In this document: positions 1 through 61,431 of the stretch, piece by piece
How positions within the stretch are numbered: the stretch's first letter is position 1
Layout: every line of letters begins with the position of its first letter
Assembly: GCA_014240375.1 (NCBI GenBank)
Contig: JAAZXB010000002.1
Coordinates: 62,001-126,000, forward strand
Source of the DNA: Planctomycetota bacterium
GTDB lineage: Bacteria > Planctomycetota > UBA8108 > UBA1146
Direction: 5' to 3'
Length of the DNA stretch: 64,000 nucleotides
The notes under the pieces: generated by a model
Databases searched by the model: none
What the model saw: only the letters and a program-made list of their open reading frames with translations
Told to the model about the DNA's origin: nothing
Translations under genes and position numbers: made by a program

Positions 1-1469
1 GCATCCATGTCGACGGTGACGCGCATCTTGCCGATCAGCAGGCGCCCATCCGCTCCGTCTCCGGAGGTGGCTACCGTCTGTGGCAAGGTCTGTCCCTCGA
101 AGGGCGGCAGAGCGTCGAGCAGGAGCGCCACGATCAGCTCGCAGCCGTCTCCGTCGTCGGGATCGTCATCGACCTGAACGGCGGTGTACTCGACACCGAC
201 CTGATCGAGGATCGAGCCGTTGAACTCCCAGGAGTCCTCGTGAATCGTCAAGTTACAGTCGTAACAGACGGTAAAGGTGAAACCCTGGATGTAATCGTCT
301 TCGTCAGAGTAGTAGAAGCACAGGTCACCGGTCTGGCCGTGGTAGGCGTAGTTCCCGGCGCCCTCGTCGAAGGCAGTTTCCATCCAGAGGGTGGTGTCTT
401 CGGCGGGATAGGCGATCGGATCGCAGGTAAATGTGCCATTTTCGTGTAACGGTGCCACGGAAAGTCCGCTAACCACGATCACATTATCGAGGGTCGGAGA
501 TCCAAGCGTTCCGTCACTGAGTGTCAATGCACTGGAATCACTGGCAGGAGTCGGCTCACCTTCGACGTATATATTCGCATTGTTGCAAGAGTACGTGTAG
601 GTGGCGATGTGAGTGTCATTTCCCTCGGGAATCGTCTGCCCTTCGAAGGGCGACTGAAAATCGAGGACTACTCCGTAAGTTCCGCCGTTGGGATATGTAT
701 TCGAGATCTCGAACTCAGCACCGGCAGCACTCGCGTCTGCACCAGTGGAAATCCCCTCGAGTGTGATCATTGTTGGATCGTGAGTGATCGCAGTCACGAA
801 CCCCTGAACACCGCCCAGGCTGTTATCGAGCAAGATTCGGGCATCACCAGTGGAACCGGTACCATCCGCGATCGCTGAACCATCCTCGATTCTCATCGTG
901 GCTGGAGGAGGAACCAGAAGGGTCAATGTTCCGCCGTTGAGTCCCAGTCCAGCGCCGGCTCCCACAGACAATCCACCCTGAACGAGAATGTTCGACAGCG
1001 GTGGGTTGTTAAGGGTGTTGTCAGAAAATGAAAAATCAACGTCGGTCTCTACCGAGACGACCGCCATCGGGGTGACGGTCACCATGGCGAGAGCTTGGCC
1101 AGTCCCCGCAGGGATTGAATGGCCGTCAAATGGGTGGTCTGCGTCCACGACGACCCCCAACGTAAATCCACCGGAAAGGATTTCCGGAACGATCAGCTCG
1201 GCATTTGAACTCTCTGTTGCTGTTCCAGCAGTAGACAGGTCTGAAACTGCTGCCATCGAGTCGTCGTATGCGACCGCGATGACAAAGCCCTCGGTCGGTT
1301 CGGTCGAATCGAGGGATATCGACAGAGTTTCCGGAGCCAGGCCTTGAGTACTGGAACTACTGATGTTGAGCGATTGCCCTCCACCAGCGAACACAGAATT
1401 TGAGAGTACCAGAGCGACAATGATCCACGTCAATGCGCGCACCTTGAAGACTGCTTTCGTGAGATACAT
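1..1469 (-). CDS. Secreted cohesin-like repeat protein, C-terminus beyond window edge
   Basis: One open frame runs from an ATG at 1469 to the window edge (489 codons) with no stop. A strong purine-rich ribosome site (AAGGGAGGAG) lies just upstream. Residues 1-28 form a signal peptide ending in SNSVFA, so the product is exported. The rest falls into about three modules of roughly 150 residues, beginning near residues 50, 205 and 340. Each has motifs such as GFVTAITHDPTM and GTYGVVLDF, the same style as the cohesin-like modules in the secreted proteins at 47857-61431. A dockerin-like end would be expected beyond the window but is not seen. The exact function is unknown. A structural, adhesive or matrix role is inference. 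Confidence 0.85.
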   Translation of the reverse strand, partial: MYLTKAVFKVRALTWIIVALVLSNSVFAGGGQSLNISSSSTQGLAPETLSISLDSTEPTEGFVIAVAYDDSMAAVSDLSTAGTATESSNAELIVPEILSGGFTLGVVVDADHPFDGHSIPAGTGQALAMVTVTPMAVVSVETDVDFSFSDNTLNNPPLSNILVQGGLSVGAGAGLGLNGGTLTLLVPPPATMRIEDGSAIADGTGSTGDARILLDNSLGGVQGFVTAITHDPTMITLEGISTGADASAAGAEFEISNTYPNGGTYGVVLDFQSPFEGQTIPEGNDTHIATYTYSCNNANIYVEGEPTPASDSSALTLSDGTLGSPTLDNVIVVSGLSVAPLHENGTFTCDPIAYPAEDTTLWMETAFDEGAGNYAYHGQTGDLCFYYSDEDDYIQGFTFTVCYDCNLTIHEDSWEFNGSILDQVGVEYTAVQVDDDPDDGDGCELIVALLLDALPPFEGQTLPQTVATSGDGADGRLLIGKMRVTVDMD

Positions 1470-2226
1470 GATCTCCTCCCTTGGTCATAATGTAAGAGCC
1501 ACTAAATACAAACACTTTGAATAATCTACTCAGAGTAACAAAGGCGAGCCTTTCATACACTAAACCGCCATCTGTCATTGCCGTTTCCTGAAACACAACC
1601 CCATTCCACAAGGCCAGGATCGAACAGACATACTGCCAAATGACAGCGGTTAGATCTTGGACACACGGCTATCAGACAATACGAAGCACCCCGTGTCAAC
1701 TGTGTAATGTCGTGATTGTCTGCTAGCCGTATCGTCTTTATAGGCATATTAGTTATGCCTGGGCACCTGTACTTGTTAGTCATGAATGGGAGGTCCAGCC
1801 GTGCCTCCAACTCAAACCGTGCCAGGTCGCTCAATTCCCCTACCTTCCGAAGAGGTCCCGACGATGGAGTGAGGTTTTTCAATTTTGAATTACAGGATAG
1901 TTCAGGTTTTTGTCGGGAATAATTTCCGAGAAAAACTCTACTGCTCCATCGAATCCCCCTGGACCATTTCCTTCAATCGAATCAAGAGTGCCCGTAGGGA
2001 ACTCGCTCCGTGATCGTGGGCCAGGAGACCAGCGTGGGCCCCTGCGGCTCCTCTCTGCGGCTCCTCTCTGCGGGACTCCTCAAGGGGCTGGAAGAGGCCC
2101 CTACCCAGGGCAAAAATGTGGTTCGGAAGGGCATTTCATGGGCGCGCAGGCGCCCAGTGGTCGACCAGGGCACTACCGGAGTGTTCGGGGAGGAGTTCTT
2201 GAAGTGACCCACGGTGAAGGATGCGT
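1470..2226. other. Spacer without a recognisable gene
   Basis: No frame here resembles a known protein. The candidate frames overlap on both strands, and their translations look compositionally random. The part near 1490-1560 is AT-rich and should hold the promoter of the minus-strand secreted gene, but I cannot fix a -35/-10 pair with confidence. A 13-bp unit (TGCGGCTCCTCTC) occurs twice in tandem at 2043-2068, followed by a partial third copy. A short hairpin, AGGGGC/GCCCCT, spans 2083-2102. Confidence 0.6.
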
Positions 2227-2408
2227 GCTGGACTCGGAGAGCTGGACTCGGAGAGCTGGACTCGGAGAGCTGGACTCGGAGAGCTGGACTCGGAGAACTG
2301 GACTCGGAGAACTGGGCAACGAGTGCTGGGCAACGAGTGCTGGGCAACGAGTGCTGGGCAACGAGTGCTGGTGAACGAGTGCTGGTGAACGAGTGCTGGT
2401 GAACGAGT
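2227..2408. repeat. 14-bp tandem array, 13 units in three sequence blocks
   Basis: Thirteen contiguous 14-bp units fill exactly 182 bp. Units 1-6 read GCTGGACTCGGAGA (the sixth starts with A). Units 7-10 read GCTGGGCAACGAGT (the first starts with A). Units 11-13 read GCTGGTGAACGAGT. All begin with the same CTGG core, and the variants occur as homogeneous blocks, which suggests expansion by slippage or unequal exchange. Fourteen is not a multiple of three, so the open frames across it are by-products and not a gene. The array lies about 20 bp past the rplQ stop, in the presumed 3' region of the alpha-operon transcript. Confidence 0.95.
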
Positions 2409-2429: not shown

Positions 2430-3041
2430 CTACTTGGGCGTTTCTTCCGCTTCGTCACCCTCGGAAGCCTCTTCTGAAGAGGTCTCGCCGTCACCCGCTG
2501 CTTCCTCGGCGATTTCGGCCGCCGGCTCGTCGGAGGATTCTGCGGAATCCTCAACAGCCTCGGTCTCCTCTGCGGAAGCTTCCGCTACCACTGCTGATTC
2601 ACCGGCTGATTCACCGGTCGATTCACCGATGGAACCGCGAGAGCGGCGGTCCCCTTCGGGGTAATCGTCATCCTCACGTACATACCCGAGATAGGCCTGA
2701 ACAGTGGCGTCTCCGAGACGAGGCTTCACCAGGCGCAACACTCGGGTATACCCTCCCGGACGATTACTGTAGTAGGGACCGATCTCATCGAAGAGCACCT
2801 GGACCACATCACGGTCACCGATCAGCGACATCGCTCTTCGGATGTTGTGAACCGTCTTGTTGCGCGAAAGTGAGATCAACTTCTCGATCTTGGGCTGGAT
2901 AAATTTCGCCTTGGTGCGAGTGGTCACAATGTGACCTTTGCCCTGCCATTCGATGACAAAAGCACGCATCAAGTTCTTTGCGAGCGCCTTTCGGTGGCTA
3001 CTCGTCCGATTCAGTTTTTTTCCTGCTACGCGATGACGCAT
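2430..3041 (-). CDS. rplQ: 50S ribosomal protein L17 with acidic tail
   Basis: Residues 1-122 match L17 throughout, from the start MRHRVAGKKLNRTSSHRKAL to a conserved end around GYTRVLRLVKPRLGD. L17 sits near the peptide exit tunnel of the large subunit. It is the last gene of the alpha cluster, 30 bp after rpoA. At 203 residues it is much longer than the usual 115-130. The extra 80 residues (123-203) are rich in Glu, Ser and Ala, contain short GESxGES-type repeats and are strongly acidic. The tail is in frame and the reading frame is intact. Its role is unknown. Confidence 0.97.
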   Translation of the reverse strand: MRHRVAGKKLNRTSSHRKALAKNLMRAFVIEWQGKGHIVTTRTKAKFIQPKIEKLISLSRNKTVHNIRRAMSLIGDRDVVQVLFDEIGPYYSNRPGGYTRVLRLVKPRLGDATVQAYLGYVREDDDYPEGDRRSRGSIGESTGESAGESAVVAEASAEETEAVEDSAESSDEPAAEIAEEAAGDGETSSEEASEGDEAEETPK

Positions 3042-5741: not shown

Positions 5742-5892
5742 CGTGTCCCCTCTCTCGCTACACGGAAGAACATCTTCATGACTCCTCTTGAGGAGGCTTC
5801 GATGTTCTCCACACCCTGCACGAACCGGATGCAGACACCTGGTTCCTTCTCGACTCGTTTGTCTGCCACTGAACTCTCTGCCACCCCGCCAC

Positions 5893-5956
5893 CGTCGCTC
5901 CGAAAAACCGTCGCTCCGAAAAACCGTCGCTCCGAAAAACCGTCGCTCCGGAAAGA
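5893..5956. repeat. 16-bp tandem repeat, three perfect units plus a decayed fourth
   Basis: CGTCGCTCCGAAAAAC occurs three times back to back (5893-5940), followed by a fourth copy with a changed end (CGTCGCTCCGGAAAGA). It lies in the rpmJ leader, downstream of the candidate promoter. Confidence 0.95.
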
Positions 5957-9410: not shown

Positions 9411-10240
9411 GCGAGTGTCACTCCCCTCAGTTTTTCCACCTGCTCGTTGGTACGCATGCGCAGGAGCCCCTCGAGGGTCGCCTTGACCACATTCAGGGGA
9501 TTGTTGCTACCGTACTGCTTGGTCAGGACATCCTGAACCCCGACACTCTCGAGCACTGCACGAGCCGATGCTCCGGCGATCACGCCAGTTCCAGGCGAAG
9601 CGGGTACCATCTTCATGCGAGCGGTACCTGCGGCACCCAGCACCTCGTGACAGATGGTCGTTCCCTTGAGGGGAATCTTGTGCATCTTGGCGCGCGCATC
9701 CTTGAACGCTTTCTCGAGAGCTCCCTGAACTTCCTTGGCTTTGCCGAATCCAACGCCAACGGTGCCCTTCTTGTCCCCGAGTACCACGAGAGCACTGAAG
9801 GACATACGACGACCACCTTTGACCGTTGCAGCGACTCGATTGATCTTGACGACCTTCTCCTCGTAGCGTGGGCCATCATCTTCACGGCCACCACGACCGC
9901 CGCCGCGACCACCGCCGCGACCGCCGCGGCCACCACGGCCACCGCCGCCGGCACCACGGCCACCGCCGCCACCACGACCGCCACCGCCACCGGCACCACG
10001 ACCGCCACCGCCGCCAGCACCACGACCACCACCGCCGCCGCCACCTCGTCCAGCACCACCGGCAAATCCGCCGCCGCCACTACTGGCTTTCGCGGGTTCC
10101 GGGGCTGCTGACGCAGCGGCGTCCGCCGGCGCAGATTCTGCAGGAGCGGAACTGGCCGCTGCTGGAGTCGCTGCTGGAGTCGCTGCTGGGGTCGCTGCTG
10201 GGGTCGCCGAATCCTCAGTTTTCTTTTCTTCTTCGGACAT
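9407..10240 (-). CDS. rpsE: 30S ribosomal protein S5 with long Ala/Pro and Gly/Arg N-terminal extension
   Basis: S5 helps maintain translational accuracy and mRNA unwinding at the entry site. The conserved S5 body runs from about residue 126 (EEKVVKINRVAATVKGGRRM) to the end (KLRGVTLA). At 277 residues it is about 110 longer than usual. Residues 1-10 are acidic, 12-50 are Ala/Pro-rich with ATPA repeats encoded by a 15-bp DNA repeat, and 54-119 are almost only Gly and Arg in RGG-like units. The frame is intact and the ATG at 10240 lies 3 bp after rplR. RGG tracts in other proteins bind RNA or phase-separate; that role here is inference. Confidence 0.96.
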   Translation of the reverse strand: MSEEEKKTEDSATPAATPAATPAATPAAASSAPAESAPADAAASAAPEPAKASSGGGGFAGGAGRGGGGGGGRGAGGGGGRGAGGGGGRGGGGGRGAGGGGRGGRGGRGGGRGGGRGGREDDGPRYEEKVVKINRVAATVKGGRRMSFSALVVLGDKKGTVGVGFGKAKEVQGALEKAFKDARAKMHKIPLKGTTICHEVLGAAGTARMKMVPASPGTGVIAGASARAVLESVGVQDVLTKQYGSNNPLNVVKATLEGLLRMRTNEQVEKLRGVTLA

Positions 10241-18420: not shown

Positions 18421-18452
18421 TTCTCCGCACGACTGTTTCTCCGCACGACTGT
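18421..18452. repeat. Perfect 16-bp tandem duplication in the rpsJ leader
   Basis: TTCTCCGCACGACTGT is repeated twice without mismatch, 18 bp upstream of the rpsJ start. On the mRNA it reads as two purine-rich GCGGAGAA blocks near the ribosome-binding region, so it could affect rpsJ initiation; that is inference. Confidence 0.9.
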
Positions 18453-36248: not shown

Positions 36249-36625
36249 AAATCGTTCGCACTCGTTCCACCGGTTTCTCGTTCCACCGGTTTCTCGATCC
36301 ACCGGTTTCTCGATCCACCTCACGCGATCTCAACTTCTTGGATTCCAATGTTGACGACTTCGCACAAAGCTTCACGGAAATCCTGGTCGATCCAGTTTCC
36401 AGTGGGCCGCTCGACATTCCTGTGAAACGAATCATCAGGAACACCATCTATCGTGATCCCCCTCGTAGCAGGATCTCTCACACTCGCACTCTCGCCATCC
36501 ATCACTTCGAGCGAATCCCCGCATCTGGGGAATCCTACTCCAACGATGGAAGGTTCAATAGGAAACAAGGTTACAGGTCGTCTTTCAAGCAAATCCGTCG
36601 ATCTTCTCTCGATCTGGAAGAACAG
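36249..36625 (-). other. Spacer between tRNA-Gly and tRNA-Tyr
   Basis: This 377-bp spacer splits the tRNA cluster. Frames on both strands run through it but none resembles a protein. A 16-bp tandem repeat occupies 36262-36319, next to the 5' end of tRNA-Gly. No promoter is clear. Confidence 0.6.
36262..36319. repeat. 16-bp tandem repeat between tRNA genes
   Basis: The unit TCGTTCCACCGGTTTC occurs twice (36262-36293), then once as TCGATCCACCGGTTTC (36294-36309), then as a partial copy (36310-36319). It sits 14 bp upstream of the tRNA-Gly 5' end, so it would be in the 5' flank of that precursor. Confidence 0.95.
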
Positions 36626-49970: not shown

Positions 49971-52900
49971 TCACGGTGACACCGGACATCCCTGAGTACA
50001 TGTGGTGGGAGGCGTGTCGCATCCGAGGTCTCCTCCTCCAACATCTGGAGTCGCGTCTCCTCCGCAAGAGGGCCAGCTAGGCGCAGGAGGCACCGGGCCA
50101 AGACCCATGATGAATAACAGCTCATAGACAGGGTCGACCAGATTGATGACGCCGTCATCATTGACGTCACTGGCGTCCAGACAATCCACTGCGACCCCCG
50201 AGAACATCAGATTCAACAACAGCACTGCGTCTTGAATATCGATGTCTCCATCATTGGAACAATCACCACGAATGAAAATCGGTAGCGGCTCGCCGACAAC
50301 CAGCGAGACACTGGCCGAAGGAATGGTGGCACCCAGATCTGCGGGGTATCCCACTCCACATACAACCACAACATTATCAATCAACTCGGCATCCGCTTCC
50401 AACCAGCGTCCTTCGAACTGGAAGTCGAGTTGGAACTCACCTGGATCGGGCCAATCCTGGCAATTCGCCTGGTAGATTGCCCTGGCTACCGGTTCATTGG
50501 TTTCAAAACTCACGGTTTCGAGCAATCCGTTGGCACTACCAAACGGATCAAAACTGTAGAGGATTCCGAGACTCCAGCCGACATGGCCACTGGCGTTGAC
50601 GCTGGCATCGTTTTCCATTGCGAAGGAAACATAATCGGGCGACGCCACCAACATGGCACCGGCAAGTTCCAGCCCGAGGATCGAAACCTGACTGGCATCA
50701 TGCGACATCGCCATGGTGAACCCATGGGTTGCCGCAGGACCACAGTGAGACTGGGGATCGACAAAGCCCTCGATGCTCACCTCGAGTTCAATGGTCGTGG
50801 GTGAACCCCCTTGTAGCAGGGTGACATTGTCCGCCGCAGGTTCGGCATTGAAACTGAAGTTCCAATCGGGGTGCGGTTCATTCCAGATGTAAGAGGCGCT
50901 ACGAGTGGCCGTTTGACCATTGGAGCACACCTTCGATATCTGATAATCGATGCCGCAGCTACAAGGCGCTACCAGATCGCTATAACTGGTTTCTCCACCG
51001 GTCAGGAATGCAATCTCGACGCCATCTCTGCTGACGATAACACCTGTGGCAAACTCGCCCCAGAAGAGATCGATGGTCGAACTACCAGGCAACCGGGTAC
51101 AGACCAAGTCCAGCGCGAACTCACACTCACACTCATCAGGAATCCCGTTATTATTCATGTCTGTAGCCACGCCCTGAGCAAGATCGCATTGGTCGACGAT
51201 TCCGTTCAGATTGCAATCAGAGGCGGGGTCCAGCAATTCCACATCGTCAGGAATGCCGTTGTTGTTGCAATCGTTATCTCCAGTACACCCGTCATTGTTG
51301 GGATTGTACGCCCCACTCGAGCAATCGTCGCAGCCGTCGAAGTCCGTATCCGAGCAAACGAACGGGTTGTTGATATTGCTATCGGAAAGATCGCAGACGC
51401 CATCGCCGTCGGTATCTATTCCATCTGCTCCAACATCATCGATTCCGCTGCTGCAATCGTCACAGCCGTCAAGGTCGACATCGCGACACACCAGGTTGTT
51501 GAGCGGAGCAGCATCGAGGAAGTCCGGGACACCATCATCGTCGTCGTCCGTGTCCCCTGAATCACAGAGTCCATCCCCGTCGGTGTCGAGCCCATCTGCG
51601 GCCAGATCGAAGGTTCCACCGGAACAGTCGTCACAACCGTCTGCATCGATATCCGAGCAGGCAGTCGGGTTTTGATCGTCGCTGTCGACCGCATCGGGGG
51701 CGCCATCTCCGTCGTCATCCGGGTCTCCCCCATCGCATAGGCCATCACCGTCGAAATCCACGCCATCTTCAGCCGGATTGTAGGACCCACCGCTGCAGTC
51801 GTCACAACCATCACCATCGGTGTCGGAGCAGACATTGGGGTTGAAGTCGTCGGAGTCGGAGGTGTTGAGTGCACCATCTCCGTCGATATCGGGATCGGTC
51901 AGGTCACAGACGCCATCCCCATCGATATCAGTGCCGTCATTGGCGACATCGTAACTACCGTTGCTGCAGTCGTCACAGCCGTCACCGTCGGTGTCGGAAC
52001 AGACATTGGCATTGAACTCGTCAGAGTCGGCAGCGTTGAGCACTCCGTCTCCATCGATATCGGGATCGGTCAGGTCACAAACGCCATCCCCATCGGTATC
52101 GGTGCCGTCGTTGGCCACGTCGTAACTACCGTTGCTGCAGTCGTCACAGCCGTCACCGTCGGTGTCGGAGCAGACATTGGCGTTGAAGTCGTCGGAGTCG
52201 GCCGCATTGAGCGCGCCATCTCCGTCGATATCGTCGTCGGTCACGTCACAAGTGCCGTCGCCATCGGTATCGGTGCCGTCGGCAGCCGGGTTGTAGGAAC
52301 CTCCGCTGCAATCGTCACAACCATCACCGTCGGTGTCGGAGCAGATATTGGGGTTGTTGTCGTCGCTGTCGGTCGCGTCGAGAGATCCGTCATTATCATC
52401 GTCAGGATCACATTCATCGATGATCCCGTCGAGATCGGTATCGAGCTGGCAATCATCTTCCTGCCCGTTCCCGTCGCAGTCGATCCCCTCGACGGTGCCA
52501 TCGTTGTGATCGTCAGCATCACAGCCGTTGAGGAATCCATCTCCGTCGATATCCGGATCACAGTTGTCGATGAGGCCATCATTGTCCGTGTCGAGCTGAC
52601 AGATATCGAGTTGGCCGTCCAGGTCACAATCGGCTCCGACCGTCTGATCCACATCGCAGACATCTGGAATTCCGTCCCCATCGAGATCGCTATCACAGGC
52701 GTCGATCACCCCATCGCCATCCGTGTCGCTCTGACACGAGTCGAGCTGGCCATTTCCATCACAATCTTCACCTGTAGTTTGATCGGTATCACAGATATTG
52801 GGGATTCCATCTCCATCGATATCGGAATCGGTCAGGTCACAGATGCCATCGCTGTCGGTATCGGTGCCGTCGTTGGCCGGGTTATCGGTACCGCTGGAGC

Positions 52901-55900
52901 AGTCGTCACAGCCGTCGGCGTCAGCATCACGACAGAGGGTGTTATCGAGCGGTGCACTGTCGGCGCCGTCCGCTACACCGTCGCCATCATCATCTGAATC
53001 GCAATCGTCGATGGTCCCGTCAGAATCGGTATCGATCTCGCAGTGATCGAGTTCGCCGTCCTGATCACAATCGTCTCCGACCGTCTGATCCGCATCGCAG
53101 ATATCTGGAATTCCGTCCCCATCGAGATCGCTATCACAGGGATCGATCACCCCATCGCCATCCGTGTCATCCTGGCACGAGTCGAGTTCGCCATTTCCGT
53201 CACAATCTTCACCTGCAGTGTGATCGGAATCACAGATATTGGGGATTCCATCTCCATCGATATCGGAATCGGTCAGGTCGCAGATGCCATCGCTGTCGGT
53301 ATCGGTGCCGTCGCTGGCCGGGTTATCGGTACCGCTGGAGCAGTCGTCGCAGCCGTCACCGTCGGCGTCGCGGCACTGGGTATTGTCGAGCGGCGCACTG
53401 TCGTCGCCGTCGGCCACACCGTCGTTGTCGTCATCTGTGTCACCGGAGTCGCACAGACCGTCACCGTCGGTATCGATACCGTCAGCAGCCGGGTTGTCGG
53501 TTCCGCTGGAGCAGTCGTCACAGCCGTCACCGTCGGAGTCGCGGCACTGAGTGTTGTCGAGTGGCGCACTGTCGTCAGCGTCGGCCACACCGTCGTTATC
53601 GTCATCTGTGTCACCGGCGTCGCACTGTCCGTCACCGTCGGTATCGGTACCGTCGGCAGCAGGGTTGTCGGTTCCGCTGGAGCAGTCGTCACAGCCGTCA
53701 CCGTCGGCGTCGCGGCACTGGGTGTTATCGAGCGGAGCACTGTCGAGGCCGTCCGCCACTCCGTCGTTGTCGTCGTCGGCGTCACCGGCGTCGCACTGTC
53801 CGTCGCCGTCAGTATCAGTACCGTCGGCAGCCGGGTTGTAACTTCCGCCGGAGCAGTCGTCGCAGCCGTCACCATCGGTGTCGGAGCAGACATTGGCATT
53901 GTTGTCATCACTGTCATTAGCATCGAGTGCACCATCATTGTCGTCGTCGGGATCGCCGCTGTCGCAGAGACCGTCACCGTCGAAGTCGGCGCCGTCGTTT
54001 CCGGGAGCGTCGGTTCCGCTGGAGCAGTCGTCGCAGCCGTCACCGTCGGCGTCGCGGCACTGGGTGTTGTCGAGCGGCGCACTGTCGTCGCCGTCGGCCA
54101 CACCGTCGTTGTCGTCATCTGTGTCACCGGAGTCGCACAGACCGTCACCGTCGGTATCGATACCGTCAGCAGCCGGGTTGTCGGTTCCGCTGGAGCAGTC
54201 GTCGCAGCCGTCACCGTCGGAGTCGCGGCACTGAGTGTTGTCGAGTGGCGCACTGTCGTCAGCGTCGGCCACACCGTCGTTATCGTCATCAGGATCTGAA
54301 GCGTCACAGATGCCATCTCCGTCGGTGTCCAGTTCCGCGGAGCAGTCCGGATCGTTGCAATCGATCAGTGTATCGAGATCATCATCGAGACCATTATTGC
54401 AATTCTCAGGATCTGTAAAGGTGATCACGATGGGCAGTTCTGTGGTATCTGCGCTCAGTCCACCTGTAAGAGTTACCACCGGGCTCACGGGAGGATCTCC
54501 CAGCGTGGCGGGTAAAATCGTGGTCGAAAACGGCAAGTTCAAGAAGGCACCGACCGTTGAATACTCCACCTCGAGCATCGGCTGATTCACCTCGCAAAGG
54601 ATCACATCCAGCAAAGTGGTGTCGTAAATCACTCCTAGTGTGAAGCCATCCGGTAACAACACCGTGGTGAAAAAATCTGGCCCTGCACCGTTGTTACAAG
54701 CAGCCAGTTCCCCCAGCGATGGAGCTAAATTTGAAGAACCGACGAAGTAGGGTGCCGTCACGGAGATCACCGACGGATCATGCTGGTAAGAGAACTGGAA
54801 TCCAGCGGTAGGGTGCACCGTACCGGTGAGTTGCTGGATACTGAAGACTACATTGAAGGAGGTCAGCGGAGTTCCGAGCGGGATGAACAGATCTGTGGAA
54901 GAGATCTGGAATGTCTTCTGTGCCACCGCCGGATCACAGTGACCATCATTATCTGTATCGGTGCCATCATTCAGGGGATCATTGTCCGGCAAGGGACCAA
55001 ATCCGTCCAATCCGATGGAACAATCGTCGCAACCATCTGCATCTATATCTTCACAGATGGTTGGATCACTCGGATTCAGGTCATCGACATCCAGAACACC
55101 GTCGTTGTCATCATCTGGATCTCCGCCATCGCACAGACCATCTGAATCCAGATCAGTACCATCCTCTAACGGATTGTCGACTCCACTCGAACAGTCGTCG
55201 CAGCCATCCTGGTCATCGTCCCGGCACAAGAATTCATCGAGAGGATGGCTGTCGAGACCGTCAGGTACCAGGTCATTATCAGCGTCAGGGTCTCCGCCAT
55301 CGCACAATCCGTCACCATCTGTGTCTGTTTCCGCCGCGCAGTCGGGATCCGCGCAATCGATGAGCGAATCCTGATCATCGTCGATCAAATTGAAACAGTC
55401 CTCTATCGGGGTGAAGGTGATCTCGAAGGGCAATGCGTCCGTTGCTGCGGACACTCCTGGAGGAATCGCCACCACTGTTGCCAGTGGCGGTGTCCCCAGT
55501 TCCGCCGGTATCACAGTTGTCGTGAAAGGCAAATTGCTGAGCACACCGTTGGTTGAGTAGCCGACTTCGATCACAGGCTTGGTCACTTCAAAGGTGATCG
55601 ATTGCTGCAAGGTGAAGTCATAGATCACGCCAAATGTGAAGCCGTTCGCCAGTATCTGAGCCGAAACAAAGTCTGGCCCCGTACCACCATTGAGAGTGAC
55701 GAGATCACCCAGAAATGGTGAGGCTGCAGTGCGGTCGAGAAAGTAAGGATCGATCACCTGGAGCACCAACGGGTCATGTTCGAATGAAAAAGTGAATCCC
55801 GAAGTTGGAGAGATTGGAGAGGTTAGAGTGTTGGTCTGCTCGACGCTGAAAGTCACCGAGAAGGTCACCGGATCCAGCCCTGCGGCAAGTGTCTGATCCG

Positions 55901-56136: not shown

Positions 56137-59100
56137 CTATGGAGTTGCCGGACATTCCTGGGAACAGGCATTAAAACTGGAACACTCCAGAGCATCCGGA
56201 GTTGGATCCGCTCCGCAGACCAATCCCGGGGACGGAGGCACAGGACCCAGTCCCATGATGTACATCAATTCATAAATCGGGTCGACGAGGTTGATCAAAC
56301 CATCATCGTTGACGTCACTGGCATCTCGACAAGCCACCGGTGTCCCCGAGAACAGATGGTTCAAGAGCAGTACCGAATCCTGAAGGTTGATGCTTCCGTC
56401 GTTGGAGCAATCACCTCGAATGAACACCTCATTGGTCGAGTTATTCTCGATCTGCAACGTCAGGATTCCCCCTGAGTTTGCTGTGTAACCAAGACTACCC
56501 ACGGCTACCTGATTGGAGATGATTCCATTACTGCCGCCAAGGTCTAGATCCTGAAAACTCAGTGTGGTGGATCCTGCTTCCGGCCAATCTCCGCACACCA
56601 CCTCGTAACTGGCCCTGACCACGTCAGTCGGAGTATCAAAAGTACGATCAAGGACTGGCCCACCAGGACCTGGAGGAGTCAGTGAGTAGATGACGCCGAG
56701 CGTCCATCCGGTATCGGTTCCACCACCAATATTGTCGATCCTTGGCGAAACGAAATCAGGTGTTGAACCGAGGAATGGCAACGCTTCTAGATCCACCACC
56801 GACAGTCCCTGGTCGCCAACGACATGCGACATCGACATGGTGAATCCATGAGTCTCCGCATATCCACAAGGTCCTCCTGGAGTGAGGGTCTCTTCGATGG
56901 AGGCAGTCACCTCAAGAGTGGTCGCCACTGTCCCGTTGTAAACGGTAATGGGACCCGCAACAGACGAAGCAGAGAAGGTGAAACTACCTGCCTCCGGATG
57001 AGCGAGCATCTGTCTGTGAACCTCGATCTCGGTGAGAGTGGTCCTGATCAGAGCAGGGTCGGGTTCGAAGGAGAGCCCCTGAGATGTTCCACTCTGTAGG
57101 CCCGCTTGCGAACCTGCAGACGAGGTCCATGCAGTGGTACCAGAAAGGGCCACATACTGTCCGAAGTGAATCCAGTCGGTATCCAGAGGGTCATTCACCA
57201 TCTGTTCTGTCATCGCCCATGAACCACAACGATTGTCAAAGATGAAGGCGGTTTCTCGGTTCGATCCGATGAACGCCTGGTCACCAGAGATGGCCAGATC
57301 TTGACCAAAACCGAGGGGGCCGCCTGACGGATCGACACACGACGCATCGATTCCTATGCTCGAGTGGAAGGACCAACTGTCGTCCAGATTCCTCTGGAAG
57401 ACGTATATGGCTCCCTCATTTTCGGCTGCCACGCTATCTTCGTCGGCGGCCACCATGATGGTGTTGTTCGACATGGCCACAGCTGAACCAAAAGCTTGCC
57501 CTTCCGACACACCCGGAACCTCCAGTCGCTCGTAGGAAGAGTTATCCCAGTTGCCGCTGTTGTCGGGGTAGAAGAGGAACGCTTGTCCATTGATCGGACT
57601 CTGAAGATCTGCGGTAGATTCAGGATTGGGCTTTGTGTCGGTACCGAGCACCAGGTAGTCACCTGCGATGGCGAGCGAACCCCTGTGTCCCAACGAAAGA
57701 CGATCATCGACTTGCGCATCCGAAGCGCTAAGCGTCAGTTTCGCCAGCTGGTCAAGCGCCCAGAATGATCCCTGTGAAGTCAACTGGAACAGGTAAGCCG
57801 CTCCCGCATCGACCTGACTGCTGTCGTCTCCGTTGGCTCCCACGAGCAAACGATCTGTGGCGATATCGAGAGCCAGTCCCTCACCGAAGCGGTCACCCGA
57901 TGCTGGGTCGATGGAACTTCCACTGGCCAGTTGAGGTTTGATCTCACCCTGCATGGTGTAATTCAGATTGTTCAGGTCCCAGCGGTAGAGGAACACCGAC
58001 CCACCTGGAGCGGAATCTGGAGTACTGATGATCAGATACTGCTGCTCCTTCAGCGCCAGGTGCTGGCCAAATCCGTCACCGGACTGAGTACCCGCAAGAT
58101 CCTGGATCTTGCTCCATTCTCCCAACACGTCTCTCTCATAGACCGAGACATTTCCATTGCTGGTGGCTGTCGCTGGACTCGCCATCAGTGCGTGGTTGCC
58201 ATCGATCACGACCGGATTCAAGTCAGCCAAACTCGGTTCAAACAACGGGTCTCCGTTGTTGTCGATCGGAGTTTTCATGTTGGCGACCGATGGAGTGCGC
58301 GAATTCTCACAAACTCTGGTCACGGTGTAACGAACTCCATCGTAGCAAGGCGTACTCAGGTCCGTGAATGACGACCCCTCGTAGTCAGATTCCAGCACCT
58401 CAATGATTTCCATCCCATCGAGGATCTCTCGCTCGATCAACAGGCCAGAAATGGATTCGAATCCATTCCATGAAATCATGAAATTGCCATCGGGTTGGAC
58501 CATTGAAGTCAGGTCCAACTGGCACTCACAACTATCCAGCATGGCATTCTGGTTCAGATCCCAGTCGCACCCGGTCTCGATATCACAGGGGAAATCGATC
58601 AGTCCGTTGCCATTGCAATCGCTCGCACCTCCGATGCCCTCGGTGATCTCGAATGGATCAGGAAGGCCATTCGAATTACAGTCATACCCATCGGGAACCG
58701 TGATGATGATGGTCTGAAGAATGGGCTCGCTCGACACTCCATTTGAATCGGTCACCATCCAGGTCAGTTCGGTACCTGCAGGACCGTAAGAGTAATCTCC
58801 TTGGGTATCTCCAGGAATGACGGACCCCACGGCAGTCGGCACACCAGTGACTTCAATCGTGAAGGATCCCTGCAAACCACTGACAGTACAGTTGTCGGAG
58901 ATGTCTCCCGCGGCAAAAGGCATCGGCGGGGCAAATGAGAACTTGCCTGCGGTGAGGCTTGCCATCCCGACACCCACCTTGGTGTAGGTCGCAGTGTTAT
59001 TTCCCGGGTCAAATCCACTAATCACAGGTGCTTCGGAGTCGGTCACGGTGATGGAAAACTGGTGAGTCGTCGAGTTCCCGTGGCTATCAGTCAGGGTCAT

Positions 59101-61431
59101 CGTGACTGTAGAAGTACCCAGATCGAAGAGATCTCCTGAACTGGAGGTCGACACGTCCGATGCGATGCCACAATTATCTGAAGCGCTGTGGGCAGCCCAG
59201 GTGGCCACAGCCCCACAAAGACCGGGATCGCTGTCAAGATTCTGCGACAGTGGCAATCCACTGTAAGCAGGAGACTCATCATCAGTGACTGTGATGTCGA
59301 AGGAAGCACTGGTCGAAAGACCATTAGCATCGAGGGAAGTGTAGGTCACCGTCGTCGTACCTACCGTGAAGTTGTCCCCCGGCTGGTGAGTGCTGGAGAG
59401 CACGGCTCCAGAGCAGTTATCTGTCGTGGTCGGAAGCGTCCAGTTGATCACGGCTCCACAATCCCCAGCATCTGCGCTGTGGGTGATGCCGGAAGGCATG
59501 CCGAGCAGTTGCGGAGTTTCAGTATCTGTCACGGTGATGGTGAGTTGGTGAGTTGTGACGTTGCCGTGAATGTCGGTCAGGGTCATCGTCACGGTCGTCG
59601 CGCCAATCTCGAAGACTTCACCTGAGGCAGCAGTCGACGTATCCGAGGCAATTCCACAGTTATCTGAACTGCTGTGGGCAGCCCAGGTGGCCACCGCTCC
59701 ACAGGAATCAGGATCACTCGAAAGATCCTGCGAAGCCGGTGCTCCGGTGTAAGCCGGTGCTTCATCGTCAGAGATGCTGATATCAAAGGAAGCACTGGTC
59801 GAGAGACCATTGGCATCGTCTGAGGTGTAGGTCACCGTCGTCGTACCGACCGGGAAGTTGTCGCCCGGCTGGTGGCTGCTGGTGAGCAGCGGATCCGGAC
59901 AGTTATCGGTGGTGGTCGGAGCAGTCCAGCTGGCCGTTGCACCACAGCTGCCGGCATCCACAGCTTGCGTCATGTTGGTGGGCATGCCGATCAGTTGCGG
60001 AGATTCAGTATCTGTCACGGTGATGGTGTACTCGTGGACCGTCGAATTACCGTGGATATCGGTGAGAGTCATCGTCACTGCCGTCGTACCGAGCTCGAAG
60101 AAATCACCCGAGGCAGAGGTCGACGTGTCCGAATCAACACCACAGTTATCAGAGCTACTGTGGGCAGCCCAGGTGGCCACCGCTCCACAGGAACCAGCAT
60201 CACTCGAAAGATCCTGCGAAGCCGGTGCTCCGGTGTAAGCCGGTGCTTCATCGTCAGAGATGCTGATATCAAAGGAAGCACTGGTCGAGAGACCATTGGC
60301 ATCGAGGGAGGTGTAGGTCACCGTCGTCGTACCGACCGGGAAGTTGTCGCCCGGCTGGTGGCTGCTGGTGAGCAGCGGATCCGGACAGTTATCGGTGGTG
60401 GTCGGAGCAGCCCAGCTGATCGTCGCGCCACAGTTACCCGCTTCAGCGGTCTGCGTCATGCTACTGGGCATGCCGAGGATCTCAGGTGCCTGGTCATCCA
60501 ACACTGTCACGGTGAACATGGAGGTCGATACTTTTCCAAAGCTATCGGTCGCAGTGTAAGTCACCTCAGTAGTTCCGAGATCGAAGGCAGAACCGCTCGC
60601 GATATCGGACACTGCGCTGATCTGACCGTCGCAGAAATCTTCCGCTACTGGCAACTCTGCCCAGTTCACCAGAGCAGTGCAACTACCGATCTCCGCGGGG
60701 ATCTGCAGGTTATTCGGCAATCCTGTAATCGCTCCTGGAGGATCATTGTGGAACTCGTCACAGGGATCGATGAGCACGATCTCCACCACCACGCTGGCGA
60801 TGAAGAACTGGAGATCCTCTGGATCCGCTGAAAGATCGAAACTGGTCGGAGTGATTCTCAGACCCAGCGACTCGAGAGATGCTGCCGTCCAGGCGTTGGT
60901 CACGAAACTGGAACCGGAGAGGCTCGAGCATTGCTGACCATCCTTCGTCGGGATCTGGCTGGAAAACAGCGGACTCCAACCAGTTCCAGCAGAACCATGC
61001 TCTACCAGAACATCGACGGGGATCAACTCGAGAGTGGATTGCGCGCGACAATAGACCTTGACGGAGATTTCTTTGATTTCTCGATCTCCAGGGAGAGTCC
61101 AGACATCTCCCACCGCGGTATGAAACATCCCCACATCAATTCCCGCGGGGGGAAGGCTGACGGAGGTAGTGTATACGGAGTGAGTCTCGCCAGAGGCACC
61201 CCCCGCAACATCACAATCACAGGGAGCCGTCTGATTGATCGTTTGACCAAAGGAACCCGGGTCGCCCACATTCGATTGATTGTTCCACTCAGCCGAGGAT
61301 GCGGCTTCGGTGCCGAACAACCGGACAGGATAAGTGACTTCTGTTTGTGCCAACAGCAGAGGACTGCTACTGGTGATCACCAGCAGTAGAACAACAACAG
61401 TTGTGAGAAGTCGCGAATTGAAAGCTAGCAT
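56137..61431 (-). CDS. Large secreted protein with HYR repeats, beta-propeller-like repeats and dockerin-like end
   Basis: The ATG at 61431 has TAGGAG 6 bp upstream and starts the signal peptide MLAFNSRLLTTVVVLLLVIT; an ATG at 61473 lacks a ribosome site. The product is 1764 residues. After a unique N-terminal part (30-225) come seven HYR-like units (about 225-800), alternating two subtypes, each with a conserved Cys pair. Next are a Cys/Asp-rich linker, FG-GAP-like repeats (about 1070-1440; FGQDLAISGDQAFIGSNRET), a cohesin-like module (about 1477-1620) and a dockerin-like pair (about 1667-1733). HYR and FG-GAP modules occur in adhesion proteins. Its role here is unknown. Confidence 0.93.
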   Translation of the reverse strand: MLAFNSRLLTTVVVLLLVITSSSPLLLAQTEVTYPVRLFGTEAASSAEWNNQSNVGDPGSFGQTINQTAPCDCDVAGGASGETHSVYTTSVSLPPAGIDVGMFHTAVGDVWTLPGDREIKEISVKVYCRAQSTLELIPVDVLVEHGSAGTGWSPLFSSQIPTKDGQQCSSLSGSSFVTNAWTAASLESLGLRITPTSFDLSADPEDLQFFIASVVVEIVLIDPCDEFHNDPPGAITGLPNNLQIPAEIGSCTALVNWAELPVAEDFCDGQISAVSDIASGSAFDLGTTEVTYTATDSFGKVSTSMFTVTVLDDQAPEILGMPSSMTQTAEAGNCGATISWAAPTTTDNCPDPLLTSSHQPGDNFPVGTTTVTYTSLDANGLSTSASFDISISDDEAPAYTGAPASQDLSSDAGSCGAVATWAAHSSSDNCGVDSDTSTSASGDFFELGTTAVTMTLTDIHGNSTVHEYTITVTDTESPQLIGMPTNMTQAVDAGSCGATASWTAPTTTDNCPDPLLTSSHQPGDNFPVGTTTVTYTSDDANGLSTSASFDISISDDEAPAYTGAPASQDLSSDPDSCGAVATWAAHSSSDNCGIASDTSTAASGEVFEIGATTVTMTLTDIHGNVTTHQLTITVTDTETPQLLGMPSGITHSADAGDCGAVINWTLPTTTDNCSGAVLSSTHQPGDNFTVGTTTVTYTSLDANGLSTSASFDITVTDDESPAYSGLPLSQNLDSDPGLCGAVATWAAHSASDNCGIASDVSTSSSGDLFDLGTSTVTMTLTDSHGNSTTHQFSITVTDSEAPVISGFDPGNNTATYTKVGVGMASLTAGKFSFAPPMPFAAGDISDNCTVSGLQGSFTIEVTGVPTAVGSVIPGDTQGDYSYGPAGTELTWMVTDSNGVSSEPILQTIIITVPDGYDCNSNGLPDPFEITEGIGGASDCNGNGLIDFPCDIETGCDWDLNQNAMLDSCECQLDLTSMVQPDGNFMISWNGFESISGLLIEREILDGMEIIEVLESDYEGSSFTDLSTPCYDGVRYTVTRVCENSRTPSVANMKTPIDNNGDPLFEPSLADLNPVVIDGNHALMASPATATSNGNVSVYERDVLGEWSKIQDLAGTQSGDGFGQHLALKEQQYLIISTPDSAPGGSVFLYRWDLNNLNYTMQGEIKPQLASGSSIDPASGDRFGEGLALDIATDRLLVGANGDDSSQVDAGAAYLFQLTSQGSFWALDQLAKLTLSASDAQVDDRLSLGHRGSLAIAGDYLVLGTDTKPNPESTADLQSPINGQAFLFYPDNSGNWDNSSYERLEVPGVSEGQAFGSAVAMSNNTIMVAADEDSVAAENEGAIYVFQRNLDDSWSFHSSIGIDASCVDPSGGPLGFGQDLAISGDQAFIGSNRETAFIFDNRCGSWAMTEQMVNDPLDTDWIHFGQYVALSGTTAWTSSAGSQAGLQSGTSQGLSFEPDPALIRTTLTEIEVHRQMLAHPEAGSFTFSASSVAGPITVYNGTVATTLEVTASIEETLTPGGPCGYAETHGFTMSMSHVVGDQGLSVVDLEALPFLGSTPDFVSPRIDNIGGGTDTGWTLGVIYSLTPPGPGGPVLDRTFDTPTDVVRASYEVVCGDWPEAGSTTLSFQDLDLGGSNGIISNQVAVGSLGYTANSGGILTLQIENNSTNEVFIRGDCSNDGSINLQDSVLLLNHLFSGTPVACRDASDVNDDGLINLVDPIYELMYIMGLGPVPPSPGLVCGADPTPDALECSSFNACSQECPATP
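59713..59924. repeat. HYR-encoding near-identical repeat, copy A
   Basis: These 212 bp match 60199-60410 (offset 486 bp, 162 codons) except for three adjacent bases at 59819-59821, that is, one codon. Confidence 0.9.
60199..60410. repeat. HYR-encoding near-identical repeat, copy B
   Basis: Partner of 59713-59924. One repeat period covers a pair of HYR units. Confidence 0.9.

Follow-up and report, generated by a model that had tools for sequence, protein, structure and literature searches.

The 14-bp tandem array located beside the ribosomal protein gene rplQ in a marine planctomycete is quite likely a minisatellite (bacterial VNTR) that evolves neutrally and turns over fast in the untranslated 3′ tract of a ribosomal-protein operon; a special function of the array itself is improbable. 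The whole stretch of DNA analyzed (hereinafter, the window; 64,000 nucleotides, G000:C43:62001-126000) belongs to a 3.39-Mb MAG (G000) of marine Planctomycetota, and the relatives compared with it were MAGs of marine Planctomycetota as well. According to direct reading of the sequence, the array occupied positions 2228-2409 of the window and consisted of 13 perfect 14-bp units in the register CTGG-N10, which were arranged in four homogeneous blocks (4 + 2 + 4 + 3) with no variation within any of them and had no 7-bp sub-period. TRF reported the region as two repeats of period 14, at 2227-2315 (6.4 copies, 98% matches) and at 2312-2413 (7.3 copies, 97% matches). The preliminary description of a 13-unit, 14-bp array in homogeneous blocks was thus confirmed by both approaches, whereas its count of three variants (6 + 4 + 3) had to be corrected to four, since the register used there merged the first two blocks and hid the G/A difference between them. 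The blocks were as follows:

2228-2283, no strand assigned: block A, four perfect copies of CTGGACTCGGAGAG, as read on the + strand (sequence, TRF)
2284-2311, no strand assigned: block B, two perfect copies of CTGGACTCGGAGAA, the G to A variant (sequence)
2312-2367, no strand assigned: block C, four perfect copies of CTGGGCAACGAGTG (sequence, TRF)
2368-2409, no strand assigned: block D, three perfect copies of CTGGTGAACGAGTG (sequence, TRF)

In shuffled intergenic DNA (657-kb sample, blocks of two bases), tandem self-matches at the array spacings were essentially zero; a chance origin of the array is excluded. A coding array was provisionally rejected: although open frames cross it, its unit length of 14 cannot be divided by three, and genome G004 lacks most of the array. 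A dispersed repeat or mobile element was likewise rejected, as the whole-genome search gave one match only at E = 0.001 or better.

The array was separated by 20 bp from the stop codon of rplQ, which lies on the minus strand, so that in the transcript the array comes after the stop, with CCAGCACTCGTTCA-type units nearest to it and CCAGCTCTCCGAGT-type units at the far end. The rpoA-rplQ ribosomal cluster is upstream of the array, while past it there are approximately 750 bp of non-coding DNA followed by a predicted secreted-protein gene, for which no Pfam match was found and which is read in the same direction as rplQ. The neighboring features were as follows:

2430-3041, minus strand: rplQ, ribosomal protein L17 with an acidic C-terminal tail (PF01196, E = 2.1e-23)
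2042-2073, no strand assigned: another tandem repeat of this gap, not related to the array, 13 bp × 2.5, CTGCGGCTCCTCT (TRF)
1671-1699, minus strand: conserved promoter-like site TTGACA-N17-TCTGAT of the secreted-protein gene, approximately 530 bp beyond the array
1-1471, minus strand: predicted secreted-protein gene, running off the window (order conserved in the family)

The same site was compared between sister species, each represented by one genome. Genomes G003 and G004 were 95% and 96% identical to the window, respectively, over approximately 40 kb of adjoining sequence. At this site, G003 carried approximately 19 units of 14 bp, which belonged to other variants and were also sorted into homogeneous blocks (seven units of ACCTGTTCTCTGGC, eight of AGCTGATCTCTGGC and approximately four TTCAACTCGTTCAG-like units, with the contig ending inside the last block), and G004 retained two to three degenerate 14-bp units, past which the identity of its flank to the window fell to approximately 75%. 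In the more distant genomes of the same genus, G001 and G002, no 14-bp array was found downstream of rplQ; in G001, the gap downstream of this gene contained a degenerate 20-bp repeat. Since G000, G003 and G004 have the 14-bp register in common, as well as parts of the unit, the arrays look related, and we infer one ancestral 14-bp array followed by lineage-specific expansion of different variants. The variability in number and the expansion from different units, both proposed earlier from the window sequence, were therefore supported at the level of species: 13 units in G000, approximately 19 in G003 and two to three in G004, with the G003 blocks built of other 14-bp variants at the same site. 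Three close genomes with one site, a shared 14-bp register and different amplified variants make the block-wise turnover traceable.

It should be noted that all of the genomes are MAGs and that short-read assemblies often mis-size repeats, which could mean that the block pattern was made by the assembler. This is very improbable, because a separate assembly, that of G003, contains a 14-bp array of different units at the same site, and blocks of 28-56 bp are short enough for ordinary k-mers to resolve; the exact copy number given by the assembly may still be off. The contigs of both G003 and G004 stop within the array region or shortly past it. This might be expected if, as the preliminary description suggested, a recombination-prone boundary separated the ribosomal cluster from the secreted-protein gene here, or if the array were a point of insertion. 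However, the gene order from rplQ to the secreted-protein gene is kept in G001, G002 and genus g5, where contigs span the site, no second strong copy of the array exists elsewhere in the genome, and the position of the G003 break, inside the array, is what a repeat unresolvable by short reads would be expected to produce. In MAGs of this kind, the end of a contig can be the sign of an array. Judging by this conserved synteny, the boundary reading appears largely refuted and is scarcely credible. Moreover, the downstream gene has its own conserved promoter: the TTGACA-N17-TCTGAT site occurred as a single match approximately 170-220 nt ahead of a ribosome-binding site and ATG in 10 genomes of the family (G000, G001, G002 and seven of g5; other family members were cut short or had no match). 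The secreted-protein gene can thus do without the ribosomal transcript, and its promoter does not include the array.

In its simplest account, the minisatellite would have arisen by tandem duplication, with slippage or unequal recombination then acting on a stretch that is under no coding constraint. The first tandem copy of a short sequence would have appeared in the ancestor shared by G000, G003 and G004; the 14-bp units may then misalign during replication or recombination, so that neighboring units are copied in runs and homogeneous blocks arise, while point mutations would seed new variants, different ones being amplified or lost in each lineage. The mutS gene was found in the genome. Mismatch repair handles small loops, not normally ones as large as 14 nt, and such arrays would therefore escape repair. 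Neutrality is favored by the site-specific, differing arrays in genomes that are approximately 95-96% identical, by similar arrays throughout the genome and by the lack of RNA structure (array RNA folded no better than shuffles, z = −0.26, and was rejected as a structured RNA; no Rfam family matched the array). Pairing between blocks, ACTCG/CGAGT, was detected in DNA on the + strand (z = −2.66), with nothing in RNA. Against neutrality stands the composition of the tract, whose excess of C over G in the first 120 nt after rplQ ranked second among approximately 122 sampled 3′ regions, which is not predicted by pure neutrality.

This composition bears on another explanation, in which the array serves as a Rho-loading (rut) tract or lengthens one: the ribosome-free, C-rich and G-poor RNA past the rplQ stop would be bound by Rho, and Rho would terminate the ribosomal transcript where g5 has an intrinsic terminator. 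Within 200 nt of the rplQ stop, the best stretch of 78 nt contained 34 C and 13 G (ratio 2.62) with cytosines spaced at 11-13 nt, the RhoTermPredict rule being a C/G ratio over 1 (PMC6407284). Rho is encoded in the genome (G000:C54:155624-156862, E = 6.1e-206), and the array RNA was not unusually structured. No intrinsic terminator (a G+C-rich hairpin with a U-run) was found on the rplQ strand near the rplQ stop in genus g1, whereas in g5 strong hairpins with a U-run and without C excess follow rplQ; the scan detected them in G010-G014, and in G008 and G015 a longer-loop hairpin with a U-run, missed by the scan, was readable by eye. Terminator type thus appears, from these sequences, to have changed within one family between g5 and g1. 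However, this contrast is essentially one phylogenetic event, the C excess is also present in G004 and G001, which have few or no units, and it is lower in G003, the genome with the longest array. In addition, the rut rule is not strict, 89 of 122 3′ regions satisfying it, and codirectional arrays genome-wide show no C-over-G bias in the transcript (8 positive, 15 negative). A Rho-loading role of the array is therefore rather unlikely. A Rho-dependent end in the region after rplQ is plausible from its composition, and the array itself is likely a passenger, because the composition occurs without it, the rut rule is permissive and other arrays are unbiased. With the transcript end suggested in the preliminary description, the C-rich tract, the encoded Rho and the absence of an intrinsic terminator would be compatible, but the composition does not require the array, and other arrays in the genome have no such strand bias. 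The array tract resembles rut sites in its C over G, spaced cytosines, little structure and position directly after a stop codon; a rut site, however, is not defined as a tandem array, and the composition of the rplQ tract is present with or without the array.

The g5 terminators downstream of rplQ (L007-L012, L014) come in two different sequences. A second rho-like gene (G000:C65:103201-104292, a 466-aa frame) scored lower than the cut-off of the rho family, and counterparts of it were found in many relatives.

Tandem repeats proved to be numerous elsewhere in the genome. The genome statistics were obtained from a 657-kb sample of G000 (contigs C43, C32, C54 and C65), in which genes were called by a home-made gene finder. 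TRF detected approximately 45 intergenic arrays, mostly of mutually unrelated sequence and with periods mostly of 11-18 and none between 19 and 176, as well as approximately 60 arrays within genes, with a period of mostly 12, 15 or 18. Exact intergenic tandem self-matches of at least 11 bases, counted independently of TRF, formed a sharp peak at 12-17 bp, and shuffles gave essentially none. Arrays with a unit of at least 10 bp and four or more copies occurred at approximately 27 per Mb; in smaller samples of the sister genomes densities were high but variable, and relatives at the class and phylum level had different repeat spectra.

In a 40-kb syntenic stretch, six of the seven array sites examined differed in copy number between sisters. 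At 18421-18452 of the window, G000 contained an exact 16-bp duplication (TTCTCCGCACGACTGT × 2) that was present as a single copy in G001, G003 and G004; no microhomology was found at its ends, and the duplication looks recent from this comparison. An array of 16 bp × 4 ahead of map (5891-5954) was private to G000, and the same gap had its own unrelated repeats in G004, G001 and G008 (periods of approximately 15, 14 and 17). The 16-bp array at 36261-36319 had approximately 3.7 copies in G000, 2.4 in G004 and 2 in G003, and beside this site G003 carried a further private 16-bp array of approximately seven copies. At 10157 and 2593, genes differed between sisters by 12-bp steps. In the gap-based comparison of indels, those of the tandem type, which were few and partly degenerate, clustered at approximately 10-18 bp.

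Generic slippage leaves the narrow 12-17 bp spacing unexplained, as it does the 16-bp duplication without flanking microhomology, and both count against the neutral account. There is some, though lesser, chance that this lineage has a mutational process by which tandem duplications with a preferred size of 12-17 bp are newly generated, both within and outside genes, with no involvement of Ku and little homology at the flanks; the rplQ array would then be one product of it, and the lineage would be a bacterial chromosomal counterpart of repeat-making in Borgs. Duplications of 12-17 bp are unlikely to come from end joining with fill-in, since Ku was not found in G000-G008. In a repeat-rich lineage with such a narrow unit size, the question of how short tandem duplications arise in bacteria would become amenable to testing.

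Comparison with known systems indicates that the array is a known kind of element and, on its own, an ordinary minisatellite: its units of at least 10 bp follow each other head to tail in at least four copies, and their number and content differ between close relatives. Like the bacterial minisatellites or VNTRs surveyed by Subirana and Messeguer (2019, PMC6749651), it has head-to-tail units over 10 bp in at least 4 copies, a locus-unique sequence, an intergenic place and a copy number shifting between relatives. The surveyed bacteria mostly had under 4 arrays per Mb (PMC6749651), so the density in G000 is higher, although the detection rules differ and the comparison is rough; moreover, G000 units peak at 12-17 bp, whereas the surveyed minisatellites peak at multiples of a 6-8-nt microsatellite. 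Some heptamer-derived satellites (Chloroflexus GATAGRA; 12/14/16-nt repeats of Burkholderia; PMC6749651) share the 14-nt period, but the rplQ array has neither a 7-bp sub-period nor another strong copy in the genome. Borg tandem repeats (Schoelmerich et al. 2023, PMC9879509) are similar to the G000 arrays in their independent origin, fast evolution and nearly always unique sequences, in their occurrence both in genes (with units divisible by three) and between them, and in being often collapsed by assemblies. Borgs, however, are archaeal extrachromosomal elements with A-rich, perfect repeats (PMC9879509), whereas the G000 arrays belong to a bacterial genome, are not A-rich and often consist of variant blocks.

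The window also contained, at 51790-54290 and 59042-60477, long tandem repeats (171, 441 and 486 bp, each divisible by three), which suggests putative large repeat-built proteins.
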